Source: a virus. Taken from it: a DNA stretch of 38,083 nucleotides. The stretch spans positions 1-38,083 of IMG/VR virus record IMGVR_UViG_3300042134_000050. One strand, written 5' to 3'. Every line of letters begins with the position of its first letter. The stretch's first letter is position 1. Both the position numbers and the translations under genes were made by a program. This document shows, piece after piece, positions 29,572-36,710 of this stretch. The notes under the pieces are model-generated. The model ran no database searches. It was not told the origin of the DNA and worked only from the letters and a program-made list of their open reading frames with translations.

Positions 29572-29762
29572 GCCTCCTCCAAGTCACAGCAGGGCGGAGG
29601 CACCACGCGTCGGCACGTGCGGTAGTGCGGCACGCCGTGCGCGCAGCGAGGGTGCGTGGGGTCGTTCACGTCGCGGGAGTGGATGAGCGGAGCGTGGTAC
29701 TTGGCCCCGAGCGGCTTCATGCTGCCGCAGTCCTCGCAGGACTCGACTTTGACGGTACTCAT
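29568..29762 (-). CDS. small Cys-rich zinc-binding-type protein
   Basis: A 64-residue protein with CEDCGSMKPLG (9-19) and RCAHGVPHYRTCRR, then PPCCDLEEA, enough ligands for one or two zincs. It directly follows the helicase loader (stop/start overlap at 29759-29762). Function unknown; it may bind DNA or a replication protein. Confidence 0.75.
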   Translation of the reverse strand: MSTVKVESCEDCGSMKPLGAKYHAPLIHSRDVNDPTHPRCAHGVPHYRTCRRVVPPPCCDLEEA

Positions 29763-30745
29763 TCGCTCTTCCTCGCCCGTTTGGGCGGCTCGAAGGCCAG
29801 CACATTCTTTGGGTCCCCGCCGATGACCGCCCGACTTCCACCGCGACTCAACTCCACGACGTAGCCTGCTTCCGCGACACGCCGCCACAGCCGGCCTCGC
29901 TGCCCCGGCTCCTGACCCATGAAGTCCAGGCGGGATTCCAACTCCGCCGCCGTGAGATTGCTCGTCCACACCGTCACCCGGCGGGAGGCATGGCGCTCCG
30001 CCACGAGCCGCTGGAAGAGCTCCACCTCCTCGGCCCCCAGGCGCTCGGCGCCGACATCATCCAGCACCACTGCGCGGGCGCGGAGCAGTTCCTCCATCGC
30101 GAAAGCGGACCGTCCGGCCATGCTGTATGCCTTTGCCTGCCGGGCCACTTGCACCAAGTCGGCCGAGTGGATGAGCACGAAGGGGCGCAAGCCCGCGTCG
30201 TCCGAGCCCCCGGCGCGCTCGTTCCACGGGTAGCGGCGGATGAAGTGCTCCAACACCGCCGCCGCCGCGACCGTCTTCCCGGCCCGCGTTGGGCCCGCCA
30301 TGACGAGGAAGGGGTAGCGCATGGCTCCAGGCCGCCCACCAGGCCCAATCTCGCGACCTTGGGCCAGCCAGGCCCTCACGGCGCGCACTCCCGTCCACTC
30401 CTCCGACAGGTTGGCGAGCGTGGCGAGGTGCTCGGCCCGGACTCCGGCCCGGGTGAGGTGGGGGCGAGGGTCCAACCGCTCCGCGTCCTCCCGTGTCTCG
30501 GCGGCCTTCCGGCACTGGTAACCGTAGTCCAGGGCGCCAGCCGCCCGCCACATGTCCAGGAACGTATGGCAGTGCTCCGAGGCGAAGCGGGGGTGCCGGG
30601 CGTCGCAGTCCGGCGGGCAGAGCACGATGGCCCGGGCCTCGGCTTCAAAGCGGGCACGTTCCTCCCGGTCCTTGCGCGCGGCCTCCAGGACGAGGGCCTT
30701 GAGCTTCGGGTGCATCGGGACGGTGTCTTGCGGCTCGAGTGGCAT
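29759..30745 (-). CDS. DnaC-like AAA+ helicase loader
   Basis: A 328-residue protein. The AAA+ ATPase part has Walker A MAGPTRAGKTVAAAAV (149-164), Walker B ARAVVLDDVGAE (223-234) and a sensor-1 region VTVWTSNL (257-264) with Asn263. The N-terminal 120 residues contain a Cys/His cluster (CPPDCDARH, EHCHTF) and charged helices, probably for binding the helicase. It should load the host replicative helicase at the phage origin, like lambda P or DnaC. It is coupled by TGATG to the replication initiator gene, the classic O-P order. Confidence 0.9.
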   Translation of the reverse strand: MPLEPQDTVPMHPKLKALVLEAARKDREERARFEAEARAIVLCPPDCDARHPRFASEHCHTFLDMWRAAGALDYGYQCRKAAETREDAERLDPRPHLTRAGVRAEHLATLANLSEEWTGVRAVRAWLAQGREIGPGGRPGAMRYPFLVMAGPTRAGKTVAAAAVLEHFIRRYPWNERAGGSDDAGLRPFVLIHSADLVQVARQAKAYSMAGRSAFAMEELLRARAVVLDDVGAERLGAEEVELFQRLVAERHASRRVTVWTSNLTAAELESRLDFMGQEPGQRGRLWRRVAEAGYVVELSRGGSRAVIGGDPKNVLAFEPPKRARKSE

Positions 30746-31620
30746 CAGTAGGGCTCCGTGGCGTCAGAGGCGGGGACGTGGACGGGGGGCAGGGTGTCCC
30801 AGTTGTGCCGGGACATGGTGGGCGGCTGGGAGCCCCGTTGCTGGACGATGCCGAGCACCTGGGGCGCGTTCCAGTTGCTGCGCAGAACGACGAAACCGGA
30901 CACCGTGGGGAATCCGCCCTTGGACCACTCGAGCAACCGGCCCCAGCGGGCCACTACCTCCGCCGCGCTGGCCTTCGAGGAGTTGAGCAGCCAGGAGACG
31001 GTGGTGGCGTCCACCGTGCCGTTGCCGCTCACGTACGGCCGGCCGGTGACCTCGAGGAACTTCGCCTCCAGGGCTCGCCAGAGCTCGGGCGCGGGGCCGG
31101 TGGCTTCCTTGCGCGGCTTCCTGGATGTGGGAGGAACGCCCACCAACGCGACCGGCGCGACAGCGACCGGCGCAGGTTTCTTCTCTTCTCCTTTCTGCGT
31201 CTGCGTCTGCGTCTGCGTCTTGCGGGCGGGTTCTTCGCCGGTACCGGTCCGGTTTCCCTCCGGTTTCCGACCGGTCCGCCTCCGGTTCTTCTCCCAGGTC
31301 GACTTGTAGCGCTCAAATCCAGTGAGTCTGTATCCGTCGGCCTCCGACCGCATCAGGCCGACATCCAACAGGGCCTGGGCGAGCGCCTCTGCCGGTCCGG
31401 TCCACCCCACGGAACCGGCGAGCAACCGGTCCGGTACCGTTCCGGTTCCCGCTATGAATCCGTCCGGCGGGCGATCCTCCGGCGCCCGGGCCAGTGCCCA
31501 GGTCCACAGGTCGAGCATGAGGCCCATCGCCTCGCGCCGGCTGATGCCCAGCAGCGCACCGAGGTCGCCTGCGTGCGCGCCAATGAAGTCCGCGTCCACC
31601 TGGAGCCATGGGAATCTCAC
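30745..31620 (-). CDS. replication initiator / replisome organiser (lambda O-like position)
   Basis: A 291-residue protein. The N-terminal domain (about 1-108; FPWLQVDADFI, LLGISRREAMGLMLDLWTWA, DVGLMRSEADGYRLTGF) is a winged-helix DNA-binding domain of the phage replisome-organiser type. A basic, flexible linker (about 110-172) includes four Thr-Gln pairs (135-142). The C-terminal domain (about 175-265; WRALEAKFLEVTGRPY, ARWGRLLEWSKGGFPTV) probably contacts the loader. Iteron-like repeats lie inside the gene at 31238-31286 and 31392-31446, so it may bind its own gene as origin. GTG start at 31620. Confidence 0.82.
   Translation of the reverse strand: MRFPWLQVDADFIGAHAGDLGALLGISRREAMGLMLDLWTWALARAPEDRPPDGFIAGTGTVPDRLLAGSVGWTGPAEALAQALLDVGLMRSEADGYRLTGFERYKSTWEKNRRRTGRKPEGNRTGTGEEPARKTQTQTQTQKGEEKKPAPVAVAPVALVGVPPTSRKPRKEATGPAPELWRALEAKFLEVTGRPYVSGNGTVDATTVSWLLNSSKASAAEVVARWGRLLEWSKGGFPTVSGFVVLRSNWNAPQVLGIVQQRGSQPPTMSRHNWDTLPPVHVPASDATEPY
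31195..31218. repeat. hexanucleotide tandem repeat (CTGCGT)x4
   Basis: Four perfect copies of CTGCGT lie in the initiator gene, coding Thr-Gln four times in the linker. As the unit is two codons, slippage would change linker length without breaking the frame. The left flank is pyrimidine-rich (31177-31194), less GC-rich than its surroundings. Confidence 0.9.
31238..31286. repeat. 11-bp iteron-like tandem repeats (candidate replication origin)
   Basis: CCGGT occurs six times here, beginning at 31238, 31244, 31249, 31260, 31271 and 31282. The last four are exactly 11 bases apart, giving units CCGGTTTCCCT, CCGGTTTCCGA, CCGGTCCGCCT and CCGGTTCTTCT. An 11-base period is not a multiple of three and the encoded residues (about 112-128) do not repeat, so the protein does not explain it. 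Tandem sites on one helix face inside an initiator gene resemble the lambda ori in gene O. Confidence 0.65.
31392..31446. repeat. second cluster of CCGGT iteron-like sites
   Basis: CCGGT starts at 31392, 31397, 31426, 31431 and 31442; the last two are again 11 bases apart. The cluster lies about 105 bases upstream, in the direction of transcription, of the first one and codes for residues about 58-76 of the initiator. It may be an outer part of the same origin. Confidence 0.5.
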
Positions 31621-34476: not shown

Positions 34477-34628
34477 GCGCCTTCAAGGACTCGGGGCACC
34501 ACTGGTGGCAGGAGTGCCAGTTATGCGGCATGGCGTGGTTCGTAGGGGATGAGCCGGATCATAGCCGCGACTCGGAAGCCACGTGCCAGCGCTGTGAGGC
34601 GGACGCAGCGAAGGAGGTGGAACAGTGA
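34473..34628 (+). CDS. 51-residue zinc-ribbon-type protein
   Basis: A small gene between coupled neighbours. The product has ECQLCGMAW (14-22) and TCQRCEADA (37-45), a simple two-knuckle zinc ribbon, with His8, His9 and several Trp. It overlaps the exonuclease gene as GTGA, so it may assist recombination. Function unknown. Confidence 0.75.
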   Translation: MSAFKDSGHHWWQECQLCGMAWFVGDEPDHSRDSEATCQRCEADAAKEVEQ

Positions 34629-35608
34629 GCTTGAGCCACGAGGACAAGAAGAAGGTGGGCGGGAGTGACGTCGCCAGCGTGCTCGGCATCTCGCGATACG
34701 GTGGACCGCTGGTGCCGTACCTCCGGATCGTCGAGGACGTCGAGAAGGACGACAACGGCACGCTGATGCGCGGGCGCGACCTGGAGCCCGTAGTGCTCGA
34801 GCAGTACCGGCGAGCCACCGGTATCGACATGCAGATGGGCAGAGTGGTGCGCGGGCTGCTGGGGCATGAGCGCGCATCTCCGGATGCTATCGCCTACCCG
34901 GAGCGCGGCATGTGGCGTGTGGTGGAGGCCAAGACGGCCTCCTGGCGCGTCATGAATGATTGGGGCGAGCCGGGCACGGACGCCATCCCGCAGGAGTACC
35001 TGGTCCAGGTGCAATGGTACCTGGGGTCCGTCCGGCAGGACCCACGGGCTCGATGCGCGGATGACGTGGGGGACGTCCCGGCCCTTGTCGGGGGCGAGTT
35101 CGGCATCTGGCAGGTGCGGTACGACTCCGAGGTGTACGAAGCCCTCCGCGAGGGCGTGAAGCGATTCTGGATGGACCACGTAGTACCGCGCCGTCCCCCG
35201 GACCCAACCGGTTCCACCCAGGAGGGCGAGTTCATCCGCAAGCGCTACCCGAAGCACACGGCCAACGCGCTCGACGCGGCCACGCTGGAACCCATGGCGA
35301 TCTACACGCTCGACGAGCACCGACGCTGTGTGGAGGGTAGGAGGGCGGCCATCAGGGCCGAGGAGTTCTGGGAAGCCAAGGTGAAGATGCTCCTGGCCGA
35401 ACACGAGGGCGTGATGTGGCCGGACGGCACCCGCCTCACCTGGAAGCAGAGCAAGCCGAGCACGGTAACGGATTGGGAGAAGGTGGCGCTGGACCTGACG
35501 ACGGGCGCGGAGTTGGACCCGGCCTGGGTCAAGGAAGTGGTGAAGAAGCACACGACGCAGCGTGACGGAGCTCGGCCTCTGGTCTGGCGCGAGGGGAAGA
35601 AGCGATGA
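34625..35608 (+). CDS. YqaJ-type viral recombinase / lambda-exonuclease-like nuclease
   Basis: A 327-residue protein of the PD-(D/E)XK exonuclease group. GGSDVASVLGISRY (12-25) is the typical opening, RGRDLEPVVLEQY (49-61) gives Glu54, SPDAIA (85-90) gives Asp87, WRVVEAKTAS (97-106) gives Glu101 and Lys103, and PQEYLVQVQWYL (122-133) holds the conserved Gln residues. It would degrade one strand of double-stranded ends so that the annealing protein encoded next but one can pair the other. C-terminal 100 residues are charged and helical. GTG start. Confidence 0.9.
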   Translation: MSLSHEDKKKVGGSDVASVLGISRYGGPLVPYLRIVEDVEKDDNGTLMRGRDLEPVVLEQYRRATGIDMQMGRVVRGLLGHERASPDAIAYPERGMWRVVEAKTASWRVMNDWGEPGTDAIPQEYLVQVQWYLGSVRQDPRARCADDVGDVPALVGGEFGIWQVRYDSEVYEALREGVKRFWMDHVVPRRPPDPTGSTQEGEFIRKRYPKHTANALDAATLEPMAIYTLDEHRRCVEGRRAAIRAEEFWEAKVKMLLAEHEGVMWPDGTRLTWKQSKPSTVTDWEKVALDLTTGAELDPAWVKEVVKKHTTQRDGARPLVWREGKKR

Positions 35609-35877
35609 GCACGAAGGCGATCCAAGAGGCATTGAGGATGTTGCGGGATGCGGACGGCGACTCTGGTGCGAACGGTGGTTGCATCGCGGCGGCCGATGAG
35701 GCGGAGAAGGAATTGGAGGCCATTCGCAAGGCGTGCGAGGCGCTGGCCAACAACAGCATTGGGGACTACGTCTACGACGTTCGCGATCGAGAGTTGAAGG
35801 GCTGGGACGGGCCGCGCGTCACTGCCTGGGGCAGCGCTTCGCAACTCATCACCACCATCGCCAAGGAGTCCAAGTGA
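35605..35877 (+). CDS. small helical protein between exonuclease and annealing protein
   Basis: A 90-residue protein, acidic and helical in the first half (LRMLRDADGDSGANGG, DEAEKELEAIRKACEALANN), with a conserved-looking end (VTAWGSASQLITTIAKES). Both ends overlap recombination genes, so it probably works with them. Not recognised. Confidence 0.75.
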   Translation: MSTKAIQEALRMLRDADGDSGANGGCIAAADEAEKELEAIRKACEALANNSIGDYVYDVRDRELKGWDGPRVTAWGSASQLITTIAKESK

Positions 35878-36710
35878 GCACCGAAGAGAAGAAGAACGAG
35901 GAAAAATCCCTGGCGACGTCCGCGCCGCTGCCGTTGCTGGCGCAGTCCTTCGGGGAGTTGCACCGGCAGGCACGGGCCCTGGCGCCCAGCGCGCTCATCC
36001 CCAAGGGTCTCCGCGGTGGCAACATTGAGGAGACGCTGGCCAACGTGACTCTGGTGCTGGCCTATGGCCGGGAGGTGGGCCTCGGGCCCGTGGCGAGCCT
36101 CTCCGGCATTGCCGTGGTGAACGGACGCCCCTTCGCCGAGTCCCAGACGCTCGCGGCTCTGGTGCGCGCCTCCGGCCACTGCCGCTACCTGCGCCGGGTG
36201 GAGTCGTCGAAGACATCTGTTACGTGGGAGACGTGGCGAGTGGGCGAGCCTCAGCCGGAGCGCCGGACCTTCTCCATGGCGGACGCCCAGGCCGCCGGAC
36301 TCGCGGGGCGCGACACGTACAAGGCCCATCCGGAGAGAATGCTGGGGGCCCGCGCTCTCGGCTGGCTTCTGCGCGACGTGTACCCGGATGTGGCCAAGGG
36401 GCTTGGAACGGAGGCCGAACGCGAGGATGCGCAGTACGCAGATGCGCCGCCCCCCGTGGTGGTCGAGCAGCCCGCCAAGGGCGTAGAGGGCCTGAAGAGC
36501 ACGCTCAAAAAGAAGGCAGAGGAGCAGAAGGCGCTGCCGTCCGCATCGCCTTCGTTCGCTGACCTGGACCGGCAACTCGAAGCCGCACGCAAGAAGGAGC
36601 AGCTCGCCGCGGCGCGGAACAAGGCACCCGTCTCCATCCACGACCCGAACGCCGAGCCGCCCGAAGACCTCATCCTGCCTGGCCAGCGCCAGCCTGGGGA
36701 GGAGGGATGA
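35874..36710 (+). CDS. RecT-like single-strand annealing protein
   Basis: A 278-residue protein. It has the pattern of phage annealing proteins: LIPKGLRGGNIEETLANVTLVLAYGREVGLGPVASLSGIAVVNGRP (about 42-87), LAALVRASGHCRY, RRTFSMADAQAAGLAGRDTY and MLGARALGWLLRDVYPDVAKGL. These are the conserved blocks of RecT-type proteins encoded beside YqaJ exonucleases. The C terminus (about 200-278) is charged and may bind the nuclease or SSB. It anneals complementary strands during repair and concatemer formation. GTG start overlaps the previous stop. Confidence 0.85.
   Translation: MSTEEKKNEEKSLATSAPLPLLAQSFGELHRQARALAPSALIPKGLRGGNIEETLANVTLVLAYGREVGLGPVASLSGIAVVNGRPFAESQTLAALVRASGHCRYLRRVESSKTSVTWETWRVGEPQPERRTFSMADAQAAGLAGRDTYKAHPERMLGARALGWLLRDVYPDVAKGLGTEAEREDAQYADAPPPVVVEQPAKGVEGLKSTLKKKAEEQKALPSASPSFADLDRQLEAARKKEQLAAARNKAPVSIHDPNAEPPEDLILPGQRQPGEEG

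Follow-up and report, generated by a model that had tools for sequence, protein, structure and literature searches.

The stretch of DNA analysed here, referred to as the window, covers an IMG/VR virus record in full (38,083 bases) and has a G+C content of about 68%; it is highly probable that a region within its replication initiator gene is a phage replication origin of the lambda type, embedded in the coding sequence and built on tighter iterons. This reading is based on a density and spacing of short sites beyond both chance and coding constraint, on a site lattice conserved between phages, on motifs that change in distant relatives and are again repeated at 11 bp, on a weak-duplex tract and on the adjacent helicase-loader gene.

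The Initiator Gene and Its Surroundings

The initiator gene (30745..31620, minus strand) begins with a GTG start codon and encodes a protein of 291 amino acids, residues 5-148 of which match PHROG 9474, 'replication initiation protein' (E=2e-10). The same PHROG was matched by 10 of the 11 aligned family members, i.e., the window protein and 9 of its 10 relatives. No homologues of the window protein were found in INPHARED phages or GTDB genomes, and the relatives come from IMG/VR only. The helicase-loader gene (29759..30745, minus strand) adjoins the initiator gene and codes for a DnaC-like ATPase (PHROG 50, E=3.5e-15; PHROG 3277, E=8.7e-13; PF01695, E=1.2e-5). Genes for a RecE-like exonuclease and a RecT-like annealing protein lie on the plus strand at 34625-36710, divergent from the replication genes.

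The initiator itself is without a Pfam match. AlphaFold2 modelled residues 5-116 with confidence (pLDDT mostly 83-95) as an N-terminal winged-helix DNA-binding domain, the codons of which occupy 31273..31608 on the minus strand, followed by a disordered linker (residues ~117-177) and a helical C-terminal part that was modelled less confidently. Structural alignment with VIA-align gave matches to winged helix-turn-helix (wHTH) proteins, among them the plasmid initiators 4pt7 and 4pql of the RepA_N type and the Rep-DNA complex 5kbj, all with Z 4.3-4.8, which is level with unrelated wHTH proteins; the best E-value of a Foldseek search was 0.75, and a PDB sequence search with the N-terminal profile returned no meaningful match. 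We infer from the predicted fold that the N-terminal domain binds DNA.

The cumulative GC skew of the record reaches its minimum at 33.6 kb, within a broad trough that spans about 30 to 34 kb. The earlier note on this DNA had proposed to map the replication start by GC skew, and the result is compatible with a start at about 31 kb, but the minimum is broad and is confounded by the switch of gene strand near 33 kb; for this reason GC skew was set aside as evidence for the origin.

Clustered Sites and the 11-bp Array

Eleven CCGGT sites had been described within 209 bases, and this was confirmed: the plus strand carries CCGGT at 31238, 31244, 31249, 31260, 31271, 31282, 31392, 31397, 31426, 31431, and 31442, the minus strand at 31243, 31270, 31414, and 31425, which gives 15 sites on both strands within 31238-31446. 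This is the densest 209-bp segment of the record, the runner-up elsewhere holding 4 sites, and its density lies above that of first-order Markov sequences of the same dinucleotide make-up, in which the best segment averaged 4.9 sites and never held more than 7 (60 runs). The proposed series of four sites exactly 11 bases apart stands as to the step but not as to the count, since 31238 belongs to it too and the exact series therefore has five members (31238-31282). The pair at 31431 and 31442 keeps the same step, as claimed.

Along the minus strand the series forms part of an iteron array of six contiguous 11-mers at 31223..31288, GAACCGGAGGC GGACCGGTCGG AAACCGGAGGG AAACCGGACCG GTACCGGCGAA GAACCCGCCCG, the last of which is degenerate. 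Tandem Repeats Finder independently reported arrays of period 11 (31248-31287) and of period 6 (31194-31220). The array codes for the linker, and iterons make sense in the codons of a disordered linker, because such a sequence is free to serve the DNA. A second ACCGG/CCGGT sub-cluster (about 31392..31448, minus strand) codes for residues ~58-77, within the predicted winged-helix domain, so that the assignment of the whole cluster to the linker, as first made, is right for 31223-31288 and wrong for 31392-31446. Extra binding capacity or autoregulation are plausible roles for this second cluster; no phase rule that would fit looping between the two clusters was found.

One may ask if high-GC codon choice and a low-complexity linker could by themselves yield CCGGT-like strings with no function at the level of DNA. 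ACC, GGN, and CGG codons are indeed common here, and the lag-11 self-similarity score of the window gene taken alone is marginal (p = 0.075 and p = 0.22 in two runs) because the codon pool is rich in them; this score was therefore not relied on, and the case is carried by exact-site tests and by the relatives. The control was a synonymous-codon shuffle that kept both the protein and the codon pool (2000 runs). The real gene contains 21 sites against a shuffle mean of 11.0 and a maximum of 18; pairs of sites on one strand with an exact 11-bp distance number 6, where the shuffles average 0.81 and reach 4 at most. As to the view that an 11-base step cannot come from codon or peptide repeats, the exact pairs exceed those of all 2000 shuffles, and 11 is not a multiple of 3. 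The shuffles exclude a coding artefact, and together with the comparisons given below they make such an account of the region very unlikely.

Conservation of the Lattice in Close Relatives

Two close relatives, L001 and L002, are 59-60% identical to the window protein over ~197 amino acids, and both clusters are present in each. The linker sites of both phages fall on the lattice of the window, at gene nucleotides 335+11k, despite a change of the peptide (NRTGTGEEPARK vs NRSGSEEKPERK); in L001 the lattice position 379 is lost and a good site stands at 390, where the peptide is different. The proposed outcome that the 11-base spacing is kept where the protein varies was therefore obtained, both on this shared lattice and in the new motifs that distant relatives repeat at 11 bp, and the close relatives did not show the refuting outcome, a linker protein kept without its repeats.

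Among the window, L001, and L002, identical synonymous codons amount to 72-89% in the domain cluster and 65-90% in the linker cluster, compared with 42-51% over residues 1-55, where the proteins are 80-89% identical. When pooled, 99 of 124 synonymous codons (80%) are identical in the two clusters vs 135 of 269 (50%) outside them; the pooled Fisher p is ~1e-8, the pairs being non-independent, and single pairs give p = 0.0004 and 0.016. The synonymous conservation in the clusters reflects selection on the DNA itself; recent recombination could have contributed in the near-identical linkers of the window and L002. That the lattice and the synonymous sites are kept between phages also speaks against a coding artefact.

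Changing Motifs at a Constant Step in Distant Relatives

The N-terminal domains of the distant relatives are only 30-57% identical, and the motif differs, but the 11-bp step stays. The repeated motif is TCCAGCGGACR in L003, GAACCCGGCRC in L009 and L010, AACCGAC in L024/L025, and GGACGTCCNNN, i.e., GGACGTCC plus 3, in L027. Palindromic GACGTC-core iterons are spaced at 11 bp in both L027 (gene nt 366-407) and L061 (gene nt 357-387), the initiators of which are otherwise divergent, suggesting a shared type of recognition.

Over the family, Stouffer z is 5.9 for lag 11 (4.4 for the non-redundant set) and 3.7 for lag 22 (3.2), and no other lag exceeds 1.6. For 12 initiators z averages 3.17 (lag 11) and 1.89 (lag 22), whereas 62 other ORFs of the same loci average 0.10 and -0.17, a lack of signal that speaks against a coding artefact. 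In L061, which was held out in the sense that it was found after the rule had been set, lag 11 is the top-scoring lag (z 4.9) and the least stable tract lies at gene nt 408. The same method applied to lambda O as a positive control returned lags 20, 23, and 44, which are the known iterons. Lag 11 is weak or absent in L008, L028, L046, and the L012-type group.

In some cultured phages the pattern is found as well. GATATCA repeats are spaced at 11 bp in Xanthomonas PBR31 (z 11), DC33, and ctEw122, the N-termini of which are related, and three copies of AACCGTTCA follow one another at this step in a Microcystis phage. By this method no clear iteron or tandem-repeat signal was obtained for TP901-1 rep, Carin1, and Venkman, and the rule is therefore not universal.

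Several observations on these loci stand apart. A DnaB-type replicative helicase is encoded downstream of the initiator, in the place of the loader, in L001 (2535-3926), L008 (5043-6440), and L028 (3918-5387), and in some other relatives neither a loader nor a DnaB-type helicase was identified downstream. In Vibrio phage 1.183.O (MG592549) the annotation places a 'CRISPR spacer' within the DUF1376 initiator gene (positions 1372-1401 of locus L049), in the repeat-rich linker region, and this spacer is probably an artefact of origin repeats. Limnohabitans phage DC33 (PQ492659) is classified as Inoviridae, yet it has 39 kb and a replication gene of the tailed-phage type, which makes the label doubtful.

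The Weak Tract and the Short Tandem Repeat

A putative DNA-unwinding tract is located at 31173..31203 (minus strand); it is purine-rich on the coding strand, CAGACGCAGAAAGGAGAAGAGAAGAAACCT, and just 0.27% of all 30-bp windows in the record have a lower stability. Its coding strand lies within a 68-nt run free of T (31175-31242). The pyrimidine-rich stretch that had been noticed alongside the sites, like the helicase-loader gene after the initiator, is as claimed. The weak tract is found at gene nt 418 in the window vs nt 446 in lambda O, and a weak stretch lies directly past the iterons in lambda and in each relative tested, with its peak at gene nt 399-460. Synonymous shuffles of the relatives give more stable tracts than the real genes do (Stouffer z 6.7; z 2.5 for lambda O by itself). 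A second weak-duplex segment, at 31303..31333 between the two site clusters, is such that 0.19% of 30-bp windows are less stable; this weakness may be an effect of the protein, because the segment codes for a conserved aromatic/Lys motif.

Between the iterons and the weak tract there is a tandem repeat (AGACGC)n, which is (CTGCGT)n on the plus strand (31194..31220, minus strand), codes for TQTQTQ and is the strongest 4-8-nt tandem repeat of the whole 38-kb record. In 22 of 30 initiator loci, which include several N-terminal types, the linker stretch contains the top-ranking short tandem repeat of its locus, vs 1.6 expected; not all of these loci are independent, and one of them, L046, was found via the repeat itself. 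The units are 5, 6, or 7 nt long (for example, AACCAAG in BA3, TACCCAA in 234P9, GGAACAG in P12026, ACAGAG in DC33, and GCCAGA in the Microcystis phage), and those of period 5 and 7 cannot derive from a repeated peptide. A disordered linker could tolerate in-frame slippage by 6 nt, which would suit a coding artefact, but units of 5 or 7 nt are not easily accommodated in this way and occur at the same place in other phages. The 5-7-nt strip past the iterons may be a second element of the origin.

Two further ideas on the hexanucleotide were dismissed. The tract (ACGCAG)n does not serve as a universal origin marker, its exact sequence being found in unrelated genes of other phages too, and it is informative only by its position in initiator genes. 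For (CTGCGT)n as a CTG primase site there was no evidence.

The weak tract also bears on the possibility that the sites are an autoregulatory operator, to which the initiator or another phage regulator binds within the initiator's own gene to control transcription, the origin lying elsewhere. Tight 11-bp phasing suits cooperative binding of any regulator, and the second sub-cluster lies farther upstream in the gene, a position suited to a roadblock. Nevertheless, an operator would not predict a weak tract and a tandem repeat at the same downstream distance in nearly all relatives, nor a shift of the motif along with the N-terminal domain, nor the fixed linker position shared with lambda O, and we consider it unlikely that regulation accounts for the array.

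Proposed Mechanism and Its Implications

In the proposed origin, the N-terminal winged-helix domain would bind ACCGG-core sites in a row, one helical turn (11 bp) apart, so that the protomers would stack on one face of the DNA. With the initiator bound, the weak tract next to the sites, (AGACGC)n-AGAAAGGAGAAGAGAAGAAA, would come under strain and open into single strands that pair little with themselves, and the DnaC-like loader encoded by the next gene would place the host DnaB helicase there. Replication would then start at the array region. More tentatively, and with doubts that outweigh our confidence, these features can be seen as a shared two-part code that does not depend on the sequence of the initiator, in which an 11-bp site lattice is followed by a strand-biased strip of 5/6/7-nt units for opening and single-strand loading, a phage counterpart of DnaA-trio/DUE repeats.

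For most of the phages known only from metagenomes, no origin has to our knowledge been mapped. An origin of the kind proposed here would be readable from sequence alone, as a non-triplet 11-bp lattice within a gene, with a short tandem repeat and a weak tract after it. Since this rule held through the change of motif, in the held-out relative and in some cultured phages (PBR31, Limnohabitans DC33, and the Microcystis phage), it could be made into a predictor. The embedded origin would also explain the odd linkers of such initiator genes.

Nucleases with Initiator-Type Domains

In contig IMGVR_UViG_3300043717_000020 the gene L007 (4001-4765) encodes an N-terminal domain 65% identical to that of the window initiator (132 amino acids), fused to a MUG113/T5orf172 (GIY-YIG) nuclease. 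It stands directly upstream of the initiator gene of the same phage, L003, the N-terminal domain of which is only 40% identical to that of L007 and the repeats of which differ. The linker array is lost in L007, and the domain cluster retains 5 sites vs 7-9 in initiators. Odn is an ICP1 nuclease that cuts satellite origins (PMC8263062, PMC10448857), and L007 shares its architecture of an initiator-type DNA-binding domain joined to a nuclease; L007 may therefore target origins like that of the window, as a candidate origin-directed nuclease. Alternatively, it may be a homing-endonuclease insertion, a reading to which the gene order at L011 points. Because a related contig joins so similar a domain to a nuclease, the finding in the window is linked to phage-phage competition.

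A second such gene, L011 (4001-6391 in IMGVR_UViG_3300037511_000504), combines an initiator-type N-terminal domain with a GIY-YIG-like C-terminal part and is followed by a separate gene resembling the C-terminal part of an initiator and then by a probable DnaC-like loader (by eye); its appearance suggests either a split initiator or the insertion of a nuclease.

It is extremely unlikely that the array of the window is a packaging, partition, or nuclease-target site instead of an origin. Direct-repeat arrays also form centromere-like and pac sites, and related contigs do have nucleases with an initiator-type DNA-binding domain, such as L007. However, the array is placed within the initiator gene and beside the loader, no terminase or par genes were seen adjoining it, and the motifs vary between phages in step with the N-terminal domain of the initiator itself.

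Comparison with Known Systems

Origins inside initiator genes are textbook knowledge for lambda and SPP1 (PMC7466680, PMC6316719). A limited literature search found no paper describing 11-bp iterons in a phage initiator gene, and no experimentally mapped origin for any PHROG 9474 member was found in the literature searched. As far as this search shows, what is new here is the contiguous one-turn spacing, its persistence through changes of motif, the presence of sites where the DNA-binding domain is encoded, and the 5-7-nt strip that recurs between phages.

In lambda, O binds the iterons, and unwinding requires at least two of them together with the AT-rich tract (PMC7466680). The earlier note had seen the lambda O/ori/P plan with a different iteron, and the plan is indeed recognizable: as in lambda, iterons occupy the codons between the DNA-binding and C-terminal domains, an A/purine-rich melting tract lies immediately past them at the same position in the gene, and the helicase loader comes next. 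The likeness is architectural only, since no similarity to the lambda O protein was detected (BLASTP of the window initiator, E = 8.1). Lambda has four 18-19-bp inverted-repeat iterons that start 20, 24, and 23 bp apart (PMC7466680), in contrast to the six contiguous 11-mers of the window, where a second cluster is also present in the codons of the DNA-binding domain.

The oriL of SPP1, situated in gene 38 (G38P initiator, G39P loader), is by its description alike in having direct repeats and an AT-rich unwinding element in the initiator gene and a loader gene (PMC6316719); SPP1 has a second origin, oriR, ~13 kb away, whereas none was found here. The RepA_N iteron plasmids and satellites (pTZ2162, pSK41, PLE RepA) employ a winged-helix initiator on semi-palindromic direct repeats (PMC7145576), the winged helix of the window protein being a prediction that matches them no better than other wHTH proteins. 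The iterons of PLE, unlike those of the window, are ~30 bp long and lie outside coding sequence (PMC8263062). Melting tracts commonly have repeats close by, among them the DnaA-trio/DUE repeats of bacterial and plasmid origins, which are short motifs that recur within such a tract or next to it (PMC10797057). The candidate strip described here differs from these in that its units are 5-7 nt long, vary between phages and are often free of T on the coding strand.
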